Shown here: positions 5,539-64,000 of the stretch, one piece after another
Layout of the letters: the number at the start of each line of letters is the position of its first letter
How positions within the stretch are numbered: position 1 is the first letter of the stretch
DNA from: Phragmitibacter flavus
GTDB lineage: Bacteria > Verrucomicrobiota > Verrucomicrobiia > Verrucomicrobiales > Verrucomicrobiaceae
Reading direction: 5' to 3'
Length of the DNA: 64,000 nt
NCBI RefSeq assembly: GCF_005780165.1
Contig: NZ_VAUV01000008.1
Location: 186,001-250,000 of the forward strand
Notes under the pieces: model-generated
Database searches by the model: none
Told to the model about the DNA's origin: nothing
What the model saw: the letters and a program-made list of their open reading frames with translations, nothing else
Program-made: the position numbers and the translations under genes

Positions 5539-6699
5539 ATGCCGTCCACCCAGCTCATCGAGTTCCTCCTGCACAGCATTCTCTTCGTGCTCGGTGCCAA
5601 CATCGGCTCCTTCCTCAATGTCGTCATCTACCGGCTCCCCCTCGGCATCTCCCTCAGCAATCCCAAGCGCTCCTTCTGCCCCCACTGCAAAACCCAGATC
5701 CCCATTTATCGCAACATCCCCCTCTTCACCTGGCTCTTCCAACGCGGCAAATGCGCCGCCTGCAAAGCCCCCATCCCCTTCCGATATTTCTTCGTCGAAC
5801 TGCTCACCGCCGTCCTGTTTTATCTGATCTTCCTCAAATTCCGCGGCCACTGGGACGACATCACCGGCTGGGGCGACCTCGTCCTCATTTATTGGATCTT
5901 CACGGCCCTGCTCATCGCCGGCACCTTCATCGACATCGATTATTTTATTCTCCCCCATGAAATCACCCTGGGTGGACTCGCCGTCGGTCTCCTCGGCAGC
6001 TACCTTATCCCCGAGATGATGGGCGAAGTCGAACGCGGACGCGCCATCCTCCTTTCTTTTGTCAGCGCCTGCATTGGCCTCGGACTGCTCTGGACCGTTG
6101 TCGAACTCGGCAAACTCGCCTTCGGCCGACTCAAACAAAAGTTCGACCAACCCGAGTCCTGGACCATTCACCAACCCGACGAAACCCAGCCCCCCATCTT
6201 CAAAATCGCCGGCGACGAACTCAGCTGGGCCGACATCTACACCCGACCCAGCGACCGGCTCATCATCACCGGCCCCGCGATCACCATCAACGACGAAACT
6301 TTCACCACTGCGAATGCGAAAGCCGAAATCACCGTCGACAAAATCAAACTCCATCTCTCTTCCGGTGAATCCAAAACCTTCTCACTCGAAACCGTCACCA
6401 AACTCGAAGGCAAGGCCACTGACATCGTCATCCCGAGAGAAGCCATGGGATTCGGCGACGTCCTCCTCATCGCCATGATCGGCTCCTTCCTTGGATGGCA
6501 GGCCGTTTTTTTCACGATTGTCGCCGCGTCCTTCCTTGGCAGTCTCCTCGCCATCCTCCCGCGCTTGATCGGCAAAACCGAATGGACCGCCAAAATCCCC
6601 TTCGGCCCCTACCTCGCCGGCGGAGCCATGATCTGGCTATTCTCCGGCCCGCAATTGGTGGACTGGTATCTCACCAAGACAGGGTTTAGGGATTGGTAG
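5539..6699 (+). CDS. pilD: Prepilin peptidase / N-methyltransferase (A24 family) with internal insertion
   Basis: Bifunctional inner-membrane enzyme that cleaves type IV prepilin or type II pseudopilin leaders and N-methylates the new N-terminus. The N-terminal region has GANIGSFLNVVIYRLP and the zinc cysteines C47/C50 and C72/C75. One catalytic Asp is in GTFIDIDYFILPHE and the other in AMGFGDVLL. About 110 mostly soluble residues (roughly 185-295) are inserted between these membrane segments, so the protein is 386 aa where typical PilD is ~280. No pilus genes are adjacent. Confidence 0.93.
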   Translation: MPSTQLIEFLLHSILFVLGANIGSFLNVVIYRLPLGISLSNPKRSFCPHCKTQIPIYRNIPLFTWLFQRGKCAACKAPIPFRYFFVELLTAVLFYLIFLKFRGHWDDITGWGDLVLIYWIFTALLIAGTFIDIDYFILPHEITLGGLAVGLLGSYLIPEMMGEVERGRAILLSFVSACIGLGLLWTVVELGKLAFGRLKQKFDQPESWTIHQPDETQPPIFKIAGDELSWADIYTRPSDRLIITGPAITINDETFTTANAKAEITVDKIKLHLSSGESKTFSLETVTKLEGKATDIVIPREAMGFGDVLLIAMIGSFLGWQAVFFTIVAASFLGSLLAILPRLIGKTEWTAKIPFGPYLAGGAMIWLFSGPQLVDWYLTKTGFRDW

Positions 6700-7729: not shown

Positions 7730-8314
7730 TCACCCCTGCGGAACGCCCAAAATCGCCAGCGCCCCCACGGGCACCGTTGGCCGCAATGGGATCGGCTGGT
7801 TCATCGGGGCGGTCACTTGATGGATCTCGCTCTCATCCGGTTTCCACACCTCCCAGTCCGGCGGCACCCCGGGGACTTCCTCAAAAAATCGGCGACGCAC
7901 GTCCTTGGTCTGCTGACTCAGCAGTTCATGCATCCCCGCCTGACAAGTGAAACAGATCAGCAAACTGTCCAAAACCTCGTTGCGCTCGCAAAGCGCCGTG
8001 GTGGTAAAGTCCTGATTGGCGATTCCCGGCCGCCCGCTTCCACAAAACGCACACTCTTCCGTGCCTTTCGAACCATCGCGCATGTGCTGCTCCTGATGAT
8101 TCAACAAATTTCCCTTCGACTCCTCTGAAAACTCCGCCAGCAAAGCATCACGGCACACGGCACAAAACGCATATTCAAAAATGCACTCCCCCGCACGCCA
8201 GGCTTTGTTGATCTGATAAGGCTGACCCTCAATCAACGACGCCGAGCAACGCGAACACTCCTGAAAAGGTCCGTCGTGCTCGATGCTGTAAAATTCCTCT
8301 TCCATCCAGTCCAT
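7730..8314 (-). CDS. Hypothetical protein with several Cys-X2-Cys pairs
   Basis: I do not recognise the family. The 194-aa soluble protein has four cysteine pairs that could form two zinc sites: CSRCSA and CAVCRD in the first half, CAFCGSG and CFTCQAG in the second. The C-terminus is Pro-rich (PIPLRPTVPVGALA). There is no signal peptide or membrane segment. It starts with ATG at 8314. It lies upstream of nothing functionally obvious and downstream of the iron-binding protein gene on the same strand, with about 110 bases between. Confidence 0.75.
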   Translation of the reverse strand: MDWMEEEFYSIEHDGPFQECSRCSASLIEGQPYQINKAWRAGECIFEYAFCAVCRDALLAEFSEESKGNLLNHQEQHMRDGSKGTEECAFCGSGRPGIANQDFTTTALCERNEVLDSLLICFTCQAGMHELLSQQTKDVRRRFFEEVPGVPPDWEVWKPDESEIHQVTAPMNQPIPLRPTVPVGALAILGVPQG

Positions 8315-8421
8315 TTAAAAACAAAAACGAAAAGGCAGAAAGCGGAAAATCGCCTTCTGCCCTTTTGACCTGTGCGATGAACACTATTTCATCACAATTC
8401 CCGACCGCTGCCGCCCTTTCC

Positions 8422-9465
8422 TTACTTCCAACCCGCGCGATCAAACACCCGCACGGCGGCTTCCTGATTTTCGCCAAGTTTCGGGAACGTCTCCAGGTCC
8501 ATCTTGAATTTGCCCCACGCCTCATGCGTTGGGCTCAGGGAAACATCCAGGTTCACCGGAAACTCATGGGAACCATTGGCGATCATTTTCTGCACTTCGG
8601 GCGTGGTCAAAAACTCCAGATACTTGGTCGCGTTCTCCACATTTTTGGCATGCTTGGCCAATCCCGCACCGCCGATGTTGCACTGCGCTCCGCGTCCGTC
8701 CTGATTCGGAAACAACACCACCACCTTGCTCGCCGCCTCGCGATCCGCGGCATCTTCTGAATTCGCCAGCAAACCCAGATAATACGTGTTCGAAACACAA
8801 ACATCCGCCAGCCCTGATGCCACGCCCTTGATCTGATCCCGATCCCCGCCCTGCGGTGCGCGCGCCATGTTCCCCACCACCGCCTTCGCCCAGGCCTCCG
8901 CCTTCTCCTCACCATTCGCCGCAATCAACGATGCCAGTAGTGACTGGTTGTAGCTGTTTCCCGAAGACCTCACCAACACACGACCACGCCATTTTGGATC
9001 AGCCAGATCCTCATAATTTTTGATCTCCCCCGCCTGCACCCGATCCTTCGCATACATGATCACCCGCGCCCGCACCGTGTAGGCATACCACTGCTTGTCT
9101 GCATCCCGCAGCCCCTCGGGCACCCGGTCGTCCAGCAGCTTCGAATCCATCGACTTCAACAGCCCCGCCTCCTTGGCCCGCTGCAAACGCCCCACGTCCA
9201 CCGTCACCAGCAAATCTGCCGGACTGCTTTCACCCTCCGACTTCAACCGCTCAATCAACTGGTCGGCCTCCGCGTTCACCACCTTCACCGCAATGCCCGT
9301 TTGCTCCGTGAACAGCTGGTTGATCGCCTCATCCACCTTGTAATGACGGTGCGAATAAACATTCAACTCCGAAGCATCAACCGACCCGATCCCAACCGCC
9401 ATCAAACCGGCCCCCATCAGCAAACCACCCATCTTGGAAACTTTGTTGCGAATAAATCTCATCAT
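8422..9465 (-). CDS. Fe(3+) ABC transporter substrate-binding protein
   Basis: Periplasmic ferric-iron binding protein of the FutA/AfuA/FbpA type (347 aa). A signal peptide covers residues ~1-31 (to VDASELNVYS). The LNVYSHRHYKVDEAI opening, a central ITxADxxR-like strand (DLLVTVDVGRLQRAKEAG) and an AYTVRARVIMYAKDRV segment are characteristic. The stretch VSNTYYLG carries the paired tyrosines that ligate iron. A Shine-Dalgarno-like AAGGTGA precedes the tandem ATGs. No permease or ATPase gene is beside it, so it must work with a transporter encoded elsewhere. Confidence 0.93.
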   Translation of the reverse strand: MMRFIRNKVSKMGGLLMGAGLMAVGIGSVDASELNVYSHRHYKVDEAINQLFTEQTGIAVKVVNAEADQLIERLKSEGESSPADLLVTVDVGRLQRAKEAGLLKSMDSKLLDDRVPEGLRDADKQWYAYTVRARVIMYAKDRVQAGEIKNYEDLADPKWRGRVLVRSSGNSYNQSLLASLIAANGEEKAEAWAKAVVGNMARAPQGGDRDQIKGVASGLADVCVSNTYYLGLLANSEDAADREAASKVVVLFPNQDGRGAQCNIGGAGLAKHAKNVENATKYLEFLTTPEVQKMIANGSHEFPVNLDVSLSPTHEAWGKFKMDLETFPKLGENQEAAVRVFDRAGWK

Positions 9466-9553
9466 TCACCTTTATCCAATCTCACTGCCATAATCAAGAA
9501 AATTCCATCCTTGAAATTTATCCCTGCACGTGGCTCGTAACTGTCCACTGCCC

Positions 9554-11179
9554 ATGCGACTCCACGATCTCACCCGCAACAAATCCTTCCTCCGCCGTGG
9601 ATTCCTTATCATCATCGGCAGTTCCATTCTGATTTGTTGGATCATCCAGTTCTTTCGCAGCGCCCAGCCCTCCGCCGTCCTCGATCTTTTGCCGACCTCC
9701 GAACTCAGCCAGCTGCGCGAAAGTTACCAACGGCTCCGCCTCGCCTCATCCTCATCCCCCGACCCCGCCGCACTTGCCGACTGGCTGCGCTCCGCCGCCA
9801 TCCTCCATGAATACACCAGCGTCCCCGAAATCGAAATCAACGAACCGGAGCAAACCGTCGAAACCCTTTTCCGCTGTGAGATCCCCGTCCTCATCCAGCA
9901 GCATACCCGCAACGAAACCGAGCGTCAGCTGTTCACCGACTACACCCGCGTCCGCTTCCTCAAAGCGTTTGATCCGCGAGCCGAAGCCCGCAACCGGCTC
10001 GAACAATCTTCCCTCAAAGAACCACCACCCCGATTCGCCAACGAACTGTTCGCCGATCTCGAACGCCTCGACCAACGTCCCCGCCAGGCCCTGCTCGCCT
10101 ACCTCCGCGAAGCCCCCCAACCCGAAGCCATCTACGCACGACGCACCGCCCTGCGCCTCGCCCTCGAACTTCAGGACACTTCCGCCCTCGAACTCCTCGT
10201 TCGCGAACCCTCCTTCGCCAGCGAAACTCCCTACCTGATGCTCCGTCAGGTGGCCCTCGACCTCAAAGACCACTCCCTGCTTCTCCAATCCCATGCGCGC
10301 ATCGTCCTCAACCACTGGACCCAACCCGTCCCCGTGGCCATCGCCCTCCTGGCCACCACCATTTGGGGTTTCATCCTGTTTTGTTCCGGTAACCGTCGTA
10401 AACGCACCCTCTGGCTTTGCGCCGCCGCCATCCTTTGCGGAATCGCCAGCGCCTGGCTGGTCCGCTGGAGCATCGACACCCTCCAATACGGCCTCGAAAA
10501 CGAACAACAATCCACTCCGGTCCACCAAATTTTCCACTGGATCATGTATGTCGGCATCCCCGAGGAAACCGCGAAACTTCTTTTGCTGCTCCCTTTTGTT
10601 CCCCTGATGCTCACCCGGCTCACCACCAGCGGTGCCGCCCTGTTGGGTGGATTTGTCGGACTCGGTTTTGCCCTGGAAGAAAACCTTCAATACTTCATCA
10701 ATCACAGCGAAGCCGTGGCCATCGGACGACTGCTCACCGCGAACGTCATCCACTTCAGCCTCACCGGACTCATCGCCTGGCAACTCCATCGCCTCCTGCG
10801 ATCCCGTTTTCACCTCGCCACCGACTTCCTCGTCGCCTTTGCCCTCATCGCCATCGCCCATGGCCTCTACAACTATTTCATCGTCGCCGACGGTGGCGAT
10901 GGAGGCAGTCAGTTGTTCGCCTTCATCATCCTCGCCCTCGCCGCCCGGCAATACCTCAAAACCCTTCCCACCGACGAACCCACCGGACGCCGTTTTGTCA
11001 TCTCGCGAACCTGTGTGTTTGTGTTTGGGGCCACTCTGCTCACCGGATTGGTCATGATCATTCTGACCTTTCGCAACACCAGTCTCGACGCGCAGACCAT
11101 CGCCCCCGTTCTCGCCGGTGCCATCGCCCTGATTCCCGTCGGCCTGATCTTCATCCACGAGTTCGACGAAGTAAGGTAA
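9554..11179 (+). CDS. PrsW-like intramembrane metalloprotease
   Basis: Membrane protease of the PrsW/CAAX-like group, named for the anti-sigma factor protease of Bacillus. The C-terminal two thirds carries the family motifs: PEETAKL (Glu-Glu), FALEEN (second Glu pair), HFSLTG and AHGLYNY (His), in multi-helix membrane segments. The first ~240 residues form a soluble helical domain after one N-terminal membrane segment, which may be a substrate-binding or regulatory part. The frame is open to a GTG at 9530, but the ATG at 9554 is preferred. The substrate is not predictable. Confidence 0.85.
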   Translation: MRLHDLTRNKSFLRRGFLIIIGSSILICWIIQFFRSAQPSAVLDLLPTSELSQLRESYQRLRLASSSSPDPAALADWLRSAAILHEYTSVPEIEINEPEQTVETLFRCEIPVLIQQHTRNETERQLFTDYTRVRFLKAFDPRAEARNRLEQSSLKEPPPRFANELFADLERLDQRPRQALLAYLREAPQPEAIYARRTALRLALELQDTSALELLVREPSFASETPYLMLRQVALDLKDHSLLLQSHARIVLNHWTQPVPVAIALLATTIWGFILFCSGNRRKRTLWLCAAAILCGIASAWLVRWSIDTLQYGLENEQQSTPVHQIFHWIMYVGIPEETAKLLLLLPFVPLMLTRLTTSGAALLGGFVGLGFALEENLQYFINHSEAVAIGRLLTANVIHFSLTGLIAWQLHRLLRSRFHLATDFLVAFALIAIAHGLYNYFIVADGGDGGSQLFAFIILALAARQYLKTLPTDEPTGRRFVISRTCVFVFGATLLTGLVMIILTFRNTSLDAQTIAPVLAGAIALIPVGLIFIHEFDEVR

Positions 11180-48308: not shown

Positions 48309-48355
48309 GACTTGGCAGAACGTAATGGATGAAGCGCGGCACGCAAGATCCCCTT

Positions 48356-48763
48356 TCAAATTGACGGTTTGTCGTCGTTGCCTCGACCAGTTTGTTCTGC
48401 TTTTTGTTCGATCTGATTGAAGCGTTTCCAGTTCTTGATTGCCAATTCGTCATCGGGTGCAACTTCCAATGCCCGAAGATACAGCTCTCGGGCTTCATCA
48501 GCATCTCCCAGACAATGCAGAGCGTCACCCTGCAAGCCAATTGGCGTCGGATTCTCCGGCTCCAACTGCTCTGCTCTTCTGAACCAATCCAGCGCTGCCT
48601 GGTAGTCCTGCAATTCGTAGTAGCAACTGCCGAGATACATCGGACTCCACGGATCTCTCGGATTCGCTTCGATGTCTTCCAAAAGAATGGGTAGTGCATC
48701 CTCCCAGCGGTGCTCTCTCATGATCCGCTTGGCTTCGTCTTGCAGAGTAGAAGGTGGAGTCAT
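48356..48763 (-). CDS. TPR-repeat protein
   Basis: The 135-aa protein has about three tetratricopeptide repeats (SPMYLGSCYYELQDYQAALD, ... IGLQGDALHCLGDADEAREL). It should form a small helical scaffold. It shares a cassette with the HEAT-repeat gene downstream, which suggests a joint role in protein binding. Confidence 0.82.
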   Translation of the reverse strand: MTPPSTLQDEAKRIMREHRWEDALPILLEDIEANPRDPWSPMYLGSCYYELQDYQAALDWFRRAEQLEPENPTPIGLQGDALHCLGDADEARELYLRALEVAPDDELAIKNWKRFNQIEQKAEQTGRGNDDKPSI

Positions 48764-49398: not shown

Positions 49399-49453
49399 AT
49401 GGACAGGAACATGACCATGTTTGGGCCAATGTCAAATTTTTTGGCCGGCCGCT

Positions 49454-49534
49454 TCGGATCTGACGATGGTAAGTGGAAAGCTTTGATGACACGACACATG
49501 CCATCCGAGCCGTTGCCTGCATCCGTTTTGCTCG
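49454..49534 (-). repeat. attC-like element, family 1 copy 1
   Basis: Closely similar to the elements at 51546 and 53385: TCGGATC..GACG, GATGACACGACA, CCGAGCCG.TGCCTG and CCGTTTTG. A further ~95 bases to the next gene stop (49535-49630) hold no recognisable feature. Confidence 0.6.
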
Positions 49535-49630
49535 CTCTCTTGTCGGTGATTCATTGTGCTTCCAGCCGGCAGCCGTAGTTCTTGATCGGCAGTTCGTCTG
49601 GACAGGCCCAGACGCTGCCAGCCAAGCTTG

Positions 49631-50935: not shown

Positions 50936-51045
50936 GCCGAACGATCCAAGCTTGGAGCCCACCGCCGAGTGGCGCTGGCTGTGCCAGAGCGAAGCGGAGC
51001 AGAGGCCGTGAGCTCGGCGGTGGTTCGCTGCAACACTTGTTAGGC
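50936..51045 (-). repeat. attC site with GTTAGGC core
   Basis: On the - strand it begins GCCTAACAAGTG, which overlaps the GNAT stop codon, and ends ATCGTTCGGC. The arms ACCACCGCCGAG and CTCGGCGGTGG pair over 11 bases. This is the clearest R''-to-R' attC of the left half, about 110 bases. Confidence 0.8.
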
Positions 51046-51545: not shown

Positions 51546-51638
51546 CCTAACTCTTCGAATCAGGCGACGGCGAAGCGGGAGGCGTCGATGACACGACAGA
51601 TGCCATACGAGCCGCTGCCTGCATCCGTTTTGTTCGTC
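51546..51638 (-). repeat. attC-like element, family 1 copy 2
   Basis: Homologous to the elements at 49454 and 53385. The left core is GCCTAAC (51545-51551) and the right core GTTCGTC (51632-51638). The block GATGACACGACAGATGCCAT is shared with 53385 with one change. Confidence 0.7.
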
Positions 51639-53372: not shown

Positions 53373-53384
53373 TTTTTAGTAGAA

Positions 53385-53471
53385 AGTCTCGGATCAGGTG
53401 ACGGCAAGCGGAAAGCGTCGATGACACGACAGATACCATTCGAGCCGTTGCCTGAATCCGTTTTGTTCGGC
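53385..53471 (-). repeat. attC-like element, family 1 copy 3
   Basis: Matches 49454 and 51546 along its length (GGATCAGG.GACGGC, GATGACACGACAGAT, CGAGCCGTTGCCTG). The right core is GTTCGGC (53465-53471). The left core is degenerate. Confidence 0.65.
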
Positions 53472-54479: not shown

Positions 54480-54491
54480 CAATTTTTCAAA

Positions 54492-54582
54492 GCGAACGAT
54501 GAGTGGTGGCACCGGTGAAATCAAGCTTCGATTCAACTAGAGACGTTATCGCTGGTTGCCACTCACGACTTGGGGGTTAGGC
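54492..54582 (-). repeat. attC site, family 3 copy 1
   Basis: Bounded by GCGAAC (54492) and GTTAGGC (54576-54582). The arms GAGTGG.GGCACCGG and CTGGTTGCCACTC pair. It is homologous to the elements at 59087 and 59683, but with diverged outer parts. Confidence 0.75.
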
Positions 54583-54954
54583 GCATTTCTCGGTTGCATC
54601 CATCTTGGAGTATTCAGTAGCCACGCGCGCGTCCAGCCAGTCGGGCCGCTGCTCCCAAGAAATGCGTAGCCAAGTGTGAACTCCGCCGCCATAATTCTAG
54701 GTAAGCCGATCGCCATCGAGTTGAAACTCGTGAACTCGCCATTCGTCGGTTGGTCGCAGTCTGGCAGAGATTGAGGTGGCTGATGCAGGCTCATACCAGT
54801 TCCGCATCGGCGCACGTTTGTCCGAGTTGGCGATAAAGACAACGAACGTGATGATCCGCCTACGCTCCTCGTCGATGAACATGAAGTCATTGTGGGTGGG
54901 GAACGTGGCAGAAGGGTAAGTCCAGAGGCCGCCGAAAGAGGACGCGATCATCAT
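54577..54954 (-). pseudogene. Cassette gene interrupted by an in-frame TAG
   Basis: One frame runs from ATG 54954 to TAA at 54577-54579, which lies in the attC core GCCTAAC as in intact cassettes. It is interrupted at 54697-54699 by TAG after ...QLDGDRLT. Beyond it the frame continues NYGGGVHTWLRISWEQR ... YSKMDATEKCA. Without the stop it would give ~125 aa, a plausible immunity- or heterocyst-like small protein of no known family. Either the gene is decaying or only the first 85 aa are used. Confidence 0.7.
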
Positions 54955-55494: not shown

Positions 55495-55584
55495 GCCTAA
55501 AGTCGAGCTCATCCACGGCGGGGAGGGAAGCCCGAATTCAAACTGGCGTGTTGCCCGCCGTTGGATGGAGCGGCTTGTTCGCAT
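55495..55584 (-). repeat. attC site, family 4 copy 1
   Basis: Homologous over about 75 bases to the element at 58324: GAGCTCATCCAC, GGGAGGGAAGCCCGAATTCA and GTTGCCCGCC.TTGGATGGAGC. The right core is GTTCGCA. The CATCC/GGATG arms pair. Confidence 0.75.
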
Positions 55585-55926: not shown

Positions 55927-56051
55927 TGCGAACGATGAGCGCAGGCACCCCTACCAGCGGGGGCGAGCGTCGATCACCGGGTTGGGATCATGGTCAGGAA
56001 ATCATCGAAACTGGGCGGCTGGTAGGGGCTGCTCTGGCGCGGCTTGTTCTC
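55927..56051 (-). repeat. attC site with 11-bp paired arms
   Basis: CCCCTACCAGC (55948-55958) pairs perfectly with GCTGGTAGGGG (56018-56028). The left core is TGCGAAC and the right core GTTCTCC. Its interior resembles part of the element at 45228. Confidence 0.75.
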
Positions 56052-56060
56052 CGGTCTTTT

Positions 56061-58323: not shown

Positions 58324-58412
58324 GCCCAACGTCTAGCTCATCCACAGCAGGGAGGGAAGCCCGAATTCAAACTGGAGCGTTGCCCGCCTTTGGATGGAGC
58401 GTCTTGTTCGGT
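58324..58412 (-). repeat. attC site, family 4 copy 2
   Basis: On the - strand it ends GACGTTGGGC, a full GTTRRRY R' core, and starts at ACCGAACAAGACGC. The arms GCTCCATCC and GGATGAGC pair. Homologous to 55495. Confidence 0.82.
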
Positions 58413-58754: not shown

Positions 58755-59099
58755 ATGCCACTCCGAAACAACACCGCCCCGCCCGTTGCTCTCGACCGAC
58801 TTGTTCAGCGTCTTGATGCGCTGGTCACGCTCGGCGTCCCCGTCCCCGTAAAGATCGCTGGCCTAAAAAAGCTGGCTACGATGGGAGAGATTGGGGAACG
58901 CATCTTCCGCAAGTGTGTGGAAGTCCTCGAAGTCACCAACAAGAAGCGTCAATACTGGCCGCTGATGGATCTACTGATGGTAGAGCGTGCCATCGCGGAA
59001 CAATGCTTCCCGGCCGCAGAATCGGCAGTGCCGGAACACATGCGAAACGCCCCCGAATGGCTCACTGAGTCGGAAACGATTCTTCCGCTGAACGTCTAG
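58755..59099 (+). CDS. Cassette protein on the + strand, unknown function
   Basis: The 114-aa protein is helical and soluble (ALDRLVQRLDALVTLGVPVP, KKLATMGEIGERIFRKCVEV). No family is recognised. It reads against the array direction. Its stop TAG lies in AACGTCTAGC at the edge of the attC at 59087. Confidence 0.72.
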   Translation: MPLRNNTAPPVALDRLVQRLDALVTLGVPVPVKIAGLKKLATMGEIGERIFRKCVEVLEVTNKKRQYWPLMDLLMVERAIAEQCFPAAESAVPEHMRNAPEWLTESETILPLNV

Positions 59100-59175
59100 C
59101 TGTGGCACCGGCGAAATGGAAGCTCGAATTTAACTAGGGGCGTTATCGCCGGTTGCCACAAGCGTCTTGTTCGCT
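59087..59175 (-). repeat. attC site, family 3 copy 2
   Basis: Nearly identical to the element at 59683: AACGTCTAGCTGTGGCACCG, GATGGAAGCTCGAATT-like centre and CGTTATCGCCGGTTGCCAC. The arms GTGGCACCGG/CCGGTTGCCAC pair. The right core is GTTCGCT. It encodes the last 11 codons of the SUKH gene. Confidence 0.85.
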
Positions 59176-59676
59176 TTTTGATTTGATGATGGCGCGTTGC
59201 ACCAATCCCATGAATTCGTCGAGTGAATGTGTCACGACATCCAGTTCACCAGTCTCGTGGTCATGAAAAAGAATCGGGTGAGGTTTGTCCAACGGGTCAA
59301 ACACATACTCGTTCCCACACCCATCGTTGGCGATACTGACAAACCGTTCACAGCCAGGCCACGACTCACGCATGGAGTCTGCGTCGAGCGGCTCGAAGAA
59401 GGCAATGCTCCAGTCTTCATCATTGATTGTGAGGTCGCAACCCTCCATCACAAGGACGCCGCCGTAGAAGTCTTTCAAGGTCGCCGGAAGGCTGGTGTTA
59501 AAGTGATCTTCAATTGAAGCAAAGTCCGGAGAGCGTAGCCTCTCTTGGAACCTTCTGGTGTAATCGTCGTTCTTCCTCTTATCGAAGAGCGCCCGGATCT
59601 TACTCCAAATCCAAACGACACCGATCGCCGGAAGAGCTAGAACCGCAATCAAAACGTAAACCTCAAGATCGGACAT
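59143..59676 (-). CDS. SMI1/KNR4 (SUKH) family protein with N-terminal membrane helix
   Basis: The 177-aa protein has a membrane helix (residues ~5-24, EVYVLIAVLALPAIGVVWIW) and a SUKH domain: IEDHFNTSLPATLKDFYGGVLV, then FVSIANDGCGNEYVFDP and a DVVTHSLDEFMG end. SUKH proteins are common immunity proteins against polymorphic toxins. The last residues EQDACGNRR come from the attC. No cognate toxin is nearby. Confidence 0.87.
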   Translation of the reverse strand: MSDLEVYVLIAVLALPAIGVVWIWSKIRALFDKRKNDDYTRRFQERLRSPDFASIEDHFNTSLPATLKDFYGGVLVMEGCDLTINDEDWSIAFFEPLDADSMRESWPGCERFVSIANDGCGNEYVFDPLDKPHPILFHDHETGELDVVTHSLDEFMGLVQRAIIKSKSEQDACGNRR

Positions 59677-59682
59677 GTATAG

Positions 59683-59770
59683 AGCGAACGTCTAGCTGTG
59701 GCACCGGCGAAATGGAAGCTCGAATTCAAGAAGGACGTTATCGCCGGTTGCCACTAGCGTCTTGTTCGCC
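59683..59770 (-). repeat. attC site, family 3 copy 3
   Basis: The attC of the first cassette. Left core AGCGAAC, right core GTTCGCC (59764-59770), paired GTGGCACCGGCG/CGCCGGTTGCCAC arms. Almost identical to 59087, which suggests recent duplication or cassette capture from the same source array. Confidence 0.85.
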
Positions 59771-60166
59771 TTTGGTTGTTGCTGCTAGCGTCGCATGCTT
59801 CTTAGCCAGAAGGTTGAGCACATTATAGCCAGCGGTTGGGATATCGTCACGTCCAGAAACCTCAAGAGGCCACTCCCACCAAGGCACGACCTCCCCGATA
59901 ATCTCCCCTCCGCTCATTGTAATGGCCTTGATGTGAGCGAATCGCGTTGCAATCACCTCTCGATTCTCGATCTCCGATGCTCTCGGCGGCGCATCTCCAT
60001 TCCAGTCTAAAAGACCTGCGAGAAACGAACGGGTCTCACGCTTGCCTTCTCGGTTGAGGTGAAGTGCAAGAACGACGCCGCATCCGAATCGGTCGTCATC
60101 AATCGGAATGCTCCAGAAATGTCCTGGCTTTAAGTAGCTCGTCGACTTTGGGCAGAAGGGCTTCAT
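59738..60166 (-). CDS. Imm26-family immunity-like protein (first cassette)
   Basis: The 142-aa protein begins with YLKPGHFWSIPIDDDRFGCG, the hallmark of Imm26-type immunity proteins, and continues with strand-rich segments (ETRSFLAGLLDWNGD, GEVVPWWEWPLEVSGRDD). It is the first cassette, next to the attI core, with its ATG only about ten bases inside. It would be expressed from a promoter in the region up to intI. The last residues (EQDASGNRR) come from the attC. Confidence 0.83.
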   Translation of the reverse strand: MKPFCPKSTSYLKPGHFWSIPIDDDRFGCGVVLALHLNREGKRETRSFLAGLLDWNGDAPPRASEIENREVIATRFAHIKAITMSGGEIIGEVVPWWEWPLEVSGRDDIPTAGYNVLNLLAKKHATLAATTKGEQDASGNRR

Positions 60167-60173
60167 TTTTGGG

Positions 60174-60395
60174 GCGAACAGAGGGTTAATTTGATGATTT
60201 GTAGAATAATATCACCCTATATCCTTCAAATTTGAAGATTTTTCGAGAGTTGATCCGATTTCGTATGCAAAATAACACGGATTTTCGGGTGTTATTCTTC
60301 AAATTTGGAGATTTACACGAGAATTGAGGTGTTATTTTACACGTCAAATAACAAAATTCTTGATAGTGTGTTCTTTTGAACATTATTATTTAAGG
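60174..60395. promoter_or_regulatory. attI core and AT-rich promoter/operator region of the integron
   Basis: The core GCGAAC (GTTCGC on the - strand) at 60174-60179 marks the attI/cassette junction. To the right the DNA becomes very AT-rich. It has a perfect 14-bp palindrome CTTCAAATTTGAAG (60224-60237), a second near-copy CTTCAAATTTGGAG (60297-60310) 73 bases on, and AATAACAC/GTGTTATT arms (60271-60278 with 60289-60296) plus GTTATT/AATAAC (60331-60352). It probably holds the cassette promoter and the divergent intI promoter with operators for an unidentified repressor. Confidence 0.6.
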
Positions 60396-60521
60396 ATGAA
60401 TCCCTCGAACAAAATCAAGCTGGAAGCGCGTCTCCGCGAAGCGATTCGACAACGGCATTATTCAATCCGGACGGAGGACTGTTATGTAGTTTTGGCAGTC
60501 AGCGTGAAGGCAATTGATTGA
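60396..60521 (+). pseudogene. intI: Truncated integron integrase (N-terminal stump)
   Basis: From ATG 60396 the reading frame gives MNPSNKIKLEARLREAIRQR, then HYSIRTEDCYV. This is the start of the N-terminal SAM-like domain of integron integrases (typically LREAIRxRHYSxRTExxYV). The match ends there, and a TGA follows at 60519 after unrelated residues. The rest of the ~320-aa enzyme, including all catalytic residues, is absent from the next 460 bases. The orientation, away from the cassettes, is canonical. The enzyme is therefore lost or moved, and the array cannot recombine by its own integrase. Confidence 0.8.
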
Positions 60522-60913
60522 ATGCGAAGTGCAACTTCGCGGTCCGTTACTCGGGTCATCGCTCAATCCGCTAGTGGAATTTTTCGGGACTCGAATTGTC
60601 TTTTTGTCAGTTCTGGGGATGCTGCCGCCATTGGTGGCGAGATGCTGGCACCGGGCAACCGAGTTTTTTTTGGATATTGAAGGGAGGGTATCAGATTGGG
60701 TTGGGGATGTCGTGGGTTTAGTTTGGGGAATGGGGGGTGGGGAGTTTGGGGAGGGTGCTGGGGTTTGGTTGGCTTTGTGATGTTGGGGGCGGGGCTTTGG
60801 GATTTGTGGACTTTGGTTGACCGACGGGTCTGACTCTATTGCACGACCGACGACACGTCGGTGGTCCGATGGGGTGTTTGCCGACGACATGTCGGGGGTG
60901 ATCGATATTTATG
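60522..60913. other. Gene-free stretch with a G-rich tract
   Basis: No gene is seen here. A 17-base hairpin (GCGAAGT-GCA-ACTTCGC near 60523) follows the intI stump. From about 60690 to 60780 the + strand holds many runs of three to six Gs (GGGG repeated), which could form a G-quadruplex. Small CCGACGAC/CGTCGG repeats lie near 60850-60895. The deletion that removed most of intI probably ended in this stretch. Confidence 0.5.
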
Positions 60914-60949
60914 ACAAAAAAATGCCGCCCGGGTGGGGCGGCATTTTTC
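60914..60949 (-). terminator. Rho-independent terminator of rpoC
   Basis: A 9-bp perfect stem (ATGCCGCCC / GGGCGGCAT, 60922-60930 and 60936-60944) with a five-base loop is flanked by A-runs and T-runs. It lies about 40 bases after the rpoC stop on the - strand. Confidence 0.9.
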
Positions 60950-60985
60950 GGTAGAATTGTCTGATTGGCGCGAGACGCTTCGCAG

Positions 60986-63900
60986 TTAAGCGGTGGCGGC
61001 GGCGTTTTCGTCGGAGGCGGTCGAGTAGACGACTTTCTCGGTTTCGACGACCTGGAATTCGCGGTTGCTGTGGAAACCGGTGCCGGCAGGGATGAGGTGG
61101 CCCATGATGACGTTCTCTTTGAATCCGCGCAGCAAGTCGTTCTTCGCCAGGGTGGCAGCTTCGGTAAGAACACGGGTGGTGTCCTGGAAGCTGGCGGCGG
61201 AGATGAAGCTGTCGGTTTCGAGGGAAGCCTTGGTGATGCCAAGCAGGACCGGATCGGCGGTGGCAGGTTTGCCACCGGCGTCGACGATGCGGTTGTTCTC
61301 GCCTTCGAACTCGAGCCGGTCGATCTGGTCTCCCCAAAGGAAGGTGGTATCGCCTGGATCGGTGACTTTCACCTTGCGCAGCATCTGGCGGATGATGATC
61401 TCGACGTGCTTGTCGTTGATCTCCACACCTTGGGCGCGGTAAACTTCCTGCACTTCGTTGACCAAGTGTTCGCGGAGGGCCTGAGGTCCAAGGATGTCGA
61501 GGATCTCGTGGGGAACCACAGGACCTTCGGTAAGCTGGTCGCCTTTGACCACCACGTCATCGTTGGAAACGAGGAGGTGTTTGCTGCGTGGGATGAGATG
61601 CTCTTCCTGCTGGCCGGTTTTGGCATCGGTGACGATGACTTTGCGTTTGCCGCGGACGAGACCACCGATTTCGACGACACCGTCGATCTTGGCGATTTCG
61701 CAGGCGTCTTTCGGTTTGCGGGCTTCGAAAAGCTCGGCAACACGGGGAAGACCACCGGTGATGTCCTTGGTTTTGGACGCTTTGCGTGGAGTCTTGGCAA
61801 GGGTGGTGCCGGGCTCGACACTTTCCTTGTTTTTGACGGCCAAGTGGGCACCGGCAGGGATGGTGTAGCTGGCGATGATCTCCTTGGTCTTCGGATCGAC
61901 CACGACGATCTGCGGGTGCAAATCTTCTTTGTGTTCGATGACGACGATCTCTTCGCTGGCGGATTCCGGGTTGATCTGCTTGGTGATGGTAACACCAGGC
62001 ATCATGTCGCGGAACTCGATCTTACCACCGCGTTCGGTGATGATCGGCACGTTGTAAGGATCCCAAGTGACCACGGTCTCGCCTTTCTTGACCTTGTCGC
62101 CCTCGGGTTTGGCGATGATGGCGCCAAGAACCAGTTTGTGCGATTCCAGTTCGCGGCCGTTGTCGTCGTGAATGCTGACGGTGCCGTTCTTGTTGAGAGC
62201 GATCCAGCCTTCGGCGGTTTGCACCACGCGCATTTCGTTGAATTTGAGCGTTCCGGCGTTTTTGGAAACGATGATCGGTTTTTTGAACGCACCGGAAGCA
62301 ACCCCACCAACGTGGAAGGTTCGCATGGTGAGCTGCGTTCCTGGTTCGCCAATCGACTGGGCGGCGACGATACCGACCGCTTCCCCGATTTTGACGGGGC
62401 GGCTGGTGGCGAGGCTGAGGCCGTAACACTTGGAGCAGCAACCGCGCTTGCTTTCGCAGGTGAGCACGGAGCGGATCTTGAGTTTTTCGACACCGATTTT
62501 CGTGAGCGAGTCGGCGCAGACTTCGTCGATGAGCTGATTGACCTGAACGATGTATTCGTCTTTGACCAGCGGGTTATGGACGGACTCACAGGAGACGCGG
62601 CCATAAATACGGGTTTTGAGGTCGACCACTTCTTCGTCACCTTGATAGATGGAGGCGAGGGTGATGCCGTTGACGGTGCCGCAATCTTCTTCGGTAACAA
62701 TGACGTCCTGTGCCACGTCGACCAGTTTACGGGTCATGTAGCCGGAGTCAGCAGTTTTGAGAGCGGTGTCGGAAAGACCTTTACGGGCACCGTGGGTGGA
62801 GATGAAATATTCCAACACGGTCAGACCTTCACGGAAGTTCGACGTAATGGGCTGTTCGATGATCTCGCCCGAAGGTTTGGCCATCAAACCACGCATCCCG
62901 GAGAGCTGCTTGATCTGGGTCTGGTTACCACGGGCACCGGAGGTGACCATGATGTAGAGCGGGTTGTGCAGTTTTTTGCCTTCATTGTATTCCAGGGTGC
63001 GGAACACTTCTTTGGAAATCTCTTCACCAGCACCGGTCCAAATGTCGATGACCTTCTGCTGACGTTCACCGTTGGTGATGATACCACGCTTGTATTGTTT
63101 CTCGACGACATCGACTTCACCACGAGCACGGGCGAGGGTCTTGTATTTGGCGTCGGGAATCACCATGTCAGTGATACCAATCGAACAACCGGAGCGCATG
63201 GCTTCGCGGAAGCCGAGCGTTTTGAGGCGGTCGAGGGCGGCAACGGTCTCCTGGTGACCGGAGCGCTGGAAGCAGCGCCAAATGAGGTCGGAGAGTTGTT
63301 TTTTGCCAACGGTGTTGTTGTAGAATCCGAGTTCTTCAGGCCAGATTTCGCTGAAACGCACGCGACCAGGGGTTGTCTCGATGACGGCCTTGGTCGGGTC
63401 GCCATAAGTGCGGCCTTTGGTCTGGTAGTCAGGGTTGCGGTAAAGGATCTTCTGGTTGACCTCGACGGAGTTTTCGCTGAGCGCGAACTCCACTTCGCTT
63501 GGATCGTTGAACAGAGGACGGCGGGCCTGGACGGCTTTCGGATCAGCTCCTGGAAGTTCACGCAAATAGGTAAGCGCAAAGCAGCCGAGGGGAATGTCCT
63601 GGGAAGGGGTGTTGACGGGCTTGCCGGATGCAGGGCTGAACAGGTTGTTCGGCGCAAGCATGAGCAGGCGGGCTTCCATCTGAGCTTCGATGGAAAGCGG
63701 CACGTGAACGGCCATTTGGTCACCATCGAAGTCGGCGTTGTAAGCCGTGCAAACGAGGGGGTGAACGCGAATGGCTTCACCTTCGATGAGTTTCGGTTCG
63801 AAGGCCTGGATGGACAAACGGTGCAGCGTAGGTGCACGGTTGAGCATGACCGGGTGACCTTTGGTGACTTCATCAAGGATGTCCCAGACTTCCGGGGTGC

Positions 63901-64000
63901 GGCGCTCGATCATCTTCTTGGCGGAGCGCACGGTGTGCACGAGGCCAAGCTCTTTGAGGCGGCGGATGATGAAGGGCTCAAACAACACGAGCGCCATTTT
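60986..64000 (-). CDS. rpoC: DNA-directed RNA polymerase subunit beta' (3' part, cut by window edge)
   Basis: The visible ~1004 C-terminal residues are about two thirds of the usual ~1400. The start lies beyond the right edge. Residues near the edge include [16 protein letters not shown] and the catalytic magnesium loop NADFDGDQM. Further on are [20 protein letters not shown] (bridge helix/trigger-loop region), the second zinc-binding site [14 protein letters not shown], and [19 protein letters not shown] (trigger loop). The C-terminus is short (ENAAATA). The integron array sits directly downstream of its terminator. Confidence 0.98.

Follow-up and report, generated by a model that had tools for sequence, protein, structure and literature searches.

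The window, a stretch of 64,000 nucleotides of the Phragmitibacter flavus genome, contains an integron cassette array, the truncated 5' end of an integrase gene (intI), and an attI-like leader between the two. We consider it probable that this locus is an integrase-less cassette array that kept its attI, the intI side having decayed and the attI having been retained as the promoter of the first cassette. Similar leaders recur at other loci of the same genome, about 15 copies in all. A sequence-only reading had described the stub beside an attC array; that observation is confirmed and the reading as a whole is partly supported, but it was incomplete, as both the attI-like leader beside the stub and its other genomic copies were overlooked.

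The intI stub and the cassette array

The stub is an ORF of 41 codons (ATG at 60396, TGA at 60519-60521), and by its sequence it is a genuine integron integrase remnant, namely the 5' end of the gene with the remainder lost. Six intact IntI sequences from the same bacterial family were combined in an HMM, and a search of the window with it, covering 1604 six-frame segments, placed the stub first and as the only significant match (E = 7e-6), the runner-up having E = 2. The integron integrase family NF011946 was its sole NCBIfam match (residues 3-33 on model positions 10-40 of 337, E = 3.7e-4), and in tblastn the intact IntI of a relative was 59% identical to it across 27 aa (E = 0.004 for the sequence searched). 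Weaker matches were to Pfam Phage_int_SAM_4 (18.6 bits, under the Pfam cutoff) and to positions 4-24 of TIGR02249 (E = 0.38 in the genome-wide search). The IntI likeness stops at about codon 31 (..TEDCYV), and the last ten codons (VLAVSVKAID) are unmatched. The estimate of a gene reduced to its "first ~35 codons" was about right, with ~27 codons matching, and, as had been noted, the stub resembles only the start of IntI before it diverges and stops; all catalytic residues are gone, only the N-terminal part of IntI being left.

On the integrase side, the remnant is bounded by an ORF that we take, by reading, to be rpoC-like, the C-terminal 204 aa of which are 65-86% identical in relatives. The space between the stub and the stop of this ORF (60986) is ~465 bp, compared with ~960 bp for a whole intI, and tblastn with intact IntI found no more integrase sequence in it. 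A single sequencing error is therefore an insufficient explanation, and a full intI masked by such an error, the longer in-frame integrase that correction might have restored, was rejected. Since the window sits within a 348-kb contig, a contig end does not account for the truncation either. Inverted repeats, short and of the CCGACGAAACGTCGG type, occur near several loci (60820-60900 in the window, L056 ~8385-8430, and L099 ~6350-6380). As part of the explanation preferred above, the stub probably still occupies its original site, in divergent orientation to the array and with the attI-like site between it and cassette 1.

The attC sites of the array span ~48.3-59.8 kb (Table 1), and the clear ones have complementary outer boxes (AAC/GTT), an unpaired spacer, and an inner stem. 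A covariance model trained on seven of the window sites recovered these seven and three further window sites (42, 34, and 18 bits). It also found non-training sites on the expected side and strand at other loci (e.g., 87, 82, and 75 bits), and genome-wide it located more sites on contigs C1, C3, C4, C7, C9, C14, C23, and C31, and elsewhere on C8. The hairpin finder alone was noisy: it gave 25 matches, compared with 6-9 when shuffled sequence was scanned at that threshold, and some matches were scattered outside the array. The cassette genes are on the minus strand, pointing away from the stub, and encode an Imm26-like protein (just under the cutoff), a SUKH-1 protein, a GNAT acetyltransferase, and several products without a Pfam match. 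Imm26 and SUKH-1, to which the products of cassettes 1 and 2 (59143-60166) are assigned at these strengths, are both toxin-immunity-associated families.

Table 1. Features of the integron remnant (positions in the window, or in the locus named).
Feature	Position	Strand	Remark
rpoC-like ORF, C-terminal part	60986..63997	-	boundary of the integron remnant, integrase side
intI remnant	60396..60521	+	IntI-like at ~codons 5-31, then ten unrelated codons and stop
attI-like leader, family A, putative cassette promoter	60176..60369	-	similarity to other copies ends CTG/TT at cassette 1 start
Cassette 1 gene, 142 aa	59738..60166	-	weak Imm26-like match just under Pfam cutoff; start codon a few bases past leader
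attC	59683..59770	+	covariance model R1, 88 bits (training member); paired outer and inner boxes, unpaired spacer
Cassette 2 gene, 177 aa	59143..59676	-	SMI1/KNR4 (SUKH-1) family
attC	59087..59175	+	covariance model, 95 bits (training member)
attC	58324..58412	+	covariance model, 92 bits (training member)
Probable attC	55927..56052	+	strong hairpin; covariance model weak, 18 bits
attC	55495..55583	+	covariance model, 90 bits (training member)
attC	54491..54585	+	covariance model, 42 bits
attC	53380..53471	+	covariance model, 73 bits (training member)
attC	51546..51638	+	covariance model, 65 bits (training member)
Probable attC	50936..51045	+	read by eye in sequence; hairpin
Probable attC	49445..49536	+	covariance model, 34 bits
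attC, last clear one of array	48313..48400	+	covariance model, 60 bits (training member); hairpin finder
attI-like copies, family B	L096 8480-8680; L096 786-918; L095 12939-13125; L097 15111-15274		

Two families of attI-like leaders

Between the stub and cassette 1 is an A+T-rich leader of ~190 bp, with palindromic sequence in the two stretches that are most conserved (AATAACAC...GTGTTATT and CTTCAAATTTGAAG). A search of the own genome with 60150-60990 unexpectedly gave nine additional matches, of which eight were to the 190 bp that precede cassette 1, and by HMM and repeat searches this leader (referred to as family A) has 11 copies in the genome, the window copy included. On the cassette side, the similarity among family-A copies ends at or a few bases from CTG/TT, and the gene that follows this end is different in every leader copy; the integrase-side end of the similarity varies. 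The core is altered in two copies, reading CTTTT at C3:27.6k and TATTC at C7:214k, and the attC model detected no attC downstream of either. The window copy and C3:271k have common sequence through the leader into the 5' region of intI. We rejected the idea that the truncated intI and its downstream tail were duplicated together at these two loci, as 19.8% of shuffles reach the observed tail similarity.

A leader search of 387 genomes of the order, in which two candidates per genome were scored, found none outside the own genome. The exact family-A motif had no match in a scan of genome contigs, from which own-genome records may be left out, and Rfam had no match. Scanned for the sigma-70 consensus, the leader showed no clear promoter pointing toward the cassettes.

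Four other attI-like copies, not picked up by the family-A leader HMM, precede the C1 and C4 arrays and are referred to as family B. Three of them lie within one 20-kb stretch of C1. The altered core of C1:73.5k reads TATGATAGG, and C1:65.8k has lost 34 bp between two GCAGACTAT repeats.

Across the ~15 copies of both families, an ORF that starts with ATG and is no shorter than 99 aa begins within 35 bp at 14 of the 15, vs. 10.8% of 20,000 random positions. Downstream on the expected strand, 13 of the 15 loci have attC-model matches, of which several are weak (E 0.02-0.2 for the loci searched), and the G/TT-type core is altered in three copies. The junction positions at G/TT are at most suggestive of an attI identity, and, on the indirect evidence of the adjoining intact ORFs, the leader probably carries a predicted promoter for cassette 1.

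Integrase loss and the origin of the copies

No integron integrase scoring over the TIGR02249 cutoff of 265 bits was found in the assembly (99.89% complete, in 44 contigs), whereas the IntI of a relative (G011), used as a positive control, scores 405 bits. The sequence-only reading had proposed an attC cluster left without its integrase, and both the array beside the stub and this search bear it out. As the genome is in 44 contigs, an integrase could sit in a gap. The genome has eight tyrosine recombinase matches, all below the IntI cutoff; three were scanned in full, of which two are Xer-like and the third, on C23, has the integron integrase as its best family, under the cutoff. Elsewhere termed Xer-like, this C23 protein is the nearest to IntI in the assembly, but it was rejected as an IntI because it scores 164 bits and, aligned to intact IntI, shows a gap over the additional domain specific to IntI (profile positions ~180-227). 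It is encoded beside a transposase-like gene, presumably IS91-like by our reading, and the pair (L061 ~7834-9935; C23:36.8-38.9k) lies between two attI-like copies. With no integrase above the cutoff in the present assembly, cassettes should be neither captured nor excised, unless an integrase arrives from outside, and may still be expressed. The word "frozen", which had been applied to the array, concerns its inferred present state; for its past, the differing first cassettes suggest integrase activity.

Among 57 genomes searched (the own genome and 56 relatives), 21 had a match over the integron-integrase cutoff. The stretch before intI was read in eight relatives with such an IntI; several have a leader of similar length ending in a GTT-type core, and attC sites are present downstream, per the model, in four of the eight. 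In relatives, equivalent leaders sit between the first cassette and an intact intI. In G011, which belongs to a different genus, a leader similar to family B adjoins the intact intI; the same leader adjoins a stop-containing intI in G001, and in G018 it has attC on both sides and no detectable intI. The solitary G018 site (L128 ~1501-1561) is inside an array, directly past a cassette-like gene. A scan for the family-B motif matched two Verrucomicrobium sp. records.

The common order of intI, attI, and cassettes, together with a near-constant cassette-side end and a variable integrase-side end, fits a decay of the integrase side with retention of a promoter-bearing attI. The integrase side of these loci would have eroded, the attI region may have been kept for its putative promoter expressing the first cassette, and the attI-like copies would have multiplied inside the own lineage. 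For family B at least, the copies may have been duplicated once the integrase was gone and later loaded with different cassettes; loading such intI-less copies would at that stage have required integrase action in trans. The three C1 copies have ~120-340 bp of upstream flank in common, in which no intI is detectable, and different first cassettes, for which the simplest reading is duplication followed by insertion in trans, although the flank could also be inherited from an ancestor whose intI lay further away. The differing first cassettes at the 15 attI-like copies suggest that an integrase was active in the past, probably partly in trans. We tentatively propose, as a possibility to be held with some reserve, a distributed integron, in which dispersed attI-plus-promoter platforms of two families were duplicated without a cis integrase and loaded in trans by a shared integrase since lost.

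Alternatively, all fifteen loci may once have been complete integrons, duplicated or acquired repeatedly, each of which lost its intI independently and never relied on an integrase in trans. The intI 5' remnants left at the window and C3:271k are consistent with this, as are the intact integron, stop-containing integron, and attI-only copy found in the single genome of G031, and intI pseudogenes arising by intragenomic duplication, with multiple intI per genome, have been reported (Nemergut et al., 2008, PMC2426708). We regard this account as conceivable yet rather doubtful, as at least 12 copies have no detectable intI, and the C1 copies combine a common intI-less flank with different first cassettes. 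It is unlikely that the leader is not an attI at all, being instead a small dispersed repeat or cassette-borne promoter element inserted upstream of cassettes by chance. A short, A+T-rich, palindromic, multicopy element would suit such an origin, but its end is constant only on the cassette side, at the G/TT-type core, and attC sites lie on that same side; moreover, two copies lie exactly between an intI remnant and cassette 1, and relatives have equivalent elements next to intact intI. It is most unlikely that the stub resembles IntI by chance or derives from the beginning of some other, unrelated tyrosine recombinase. Only ~27 residues match and single-family scores are modest, which would suit such a reading, but the stub is the best in the window by a wide margin, matches no NCBIfam family other than integron integrase, and has the right position and orientation relative to the attI and the array.

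Comparison with known integron systems

The usual description of an integron has a single attI next to a single intI. The ~15 attI-like platforms without an integrase in this genome suggest that attI is able to spread on its own, apart from intI, and provide fifteen natural replicates for asking whether promoter function retains attI after integrase loss. A phrase search of the open-access literature, judged by title, found no description of a multicopy or solitary attI without an integrase. Fifteen copies look exceptional among the relatives sampled, in a comparison that is no census and in which queries and scoring limits differed; G011, G013, and G029 each had one match to the leader query used.

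The class of integrase-less attC arrays is known as CALIN, for which Cury et al. 2016 is reportedly the source. At the window locus, at least two attC sites are present in the array and no integron integrase lies nearby, as in a CALIN. Of the features of a complete integron, an integrase over the TIGR02249 cutoff is absent, and a candidate attI is present between intI and cassette 1, as judged from sequence position, homology, and junction. Such loci may help to locate attI beside CALINs, as IntegronFinder-type searches target attC and integrase.

By themselves, intI decay and an integrase-less array are ordinary and already described. CALINs are a described class (IntegronFinder 2.0, PMC9024848), intI pseudogenes are common, at about one third (Nemergut et al., 2008, PMC2426708), and decayed chromosomal integrons with intI pseudogenes are also covered by a Xanthomonas survey (PMC12444791). 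Similar to CALINs, which are thought to be degraded integrons, the window locus has an attC array with an integrase neither in cis nor in the assembly; unlike them, it keeps an attI-like site and an intI stub, in a genome with ~15 attI-like sites of two families. It also resembles the decayed chromosomal integrons (PMC2426708; PMC12444791) in that the integrase is inactivated and the array kept, whereas the own genome has many dispersed attI-like copies, mostly without an intI remnant, and no intact intI. With the sedentary chromosomal integrons of same-family relatives (G011, G013, G029, and others), it shares an intI divergent from the array, an attI-type leader (~220 bp in these relatives) with a G/TT-type core, and similar attC sites. 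However, in G011, G013, and G029, unlike in the own genome, IntI is intact and a single copy of that leader was detected.
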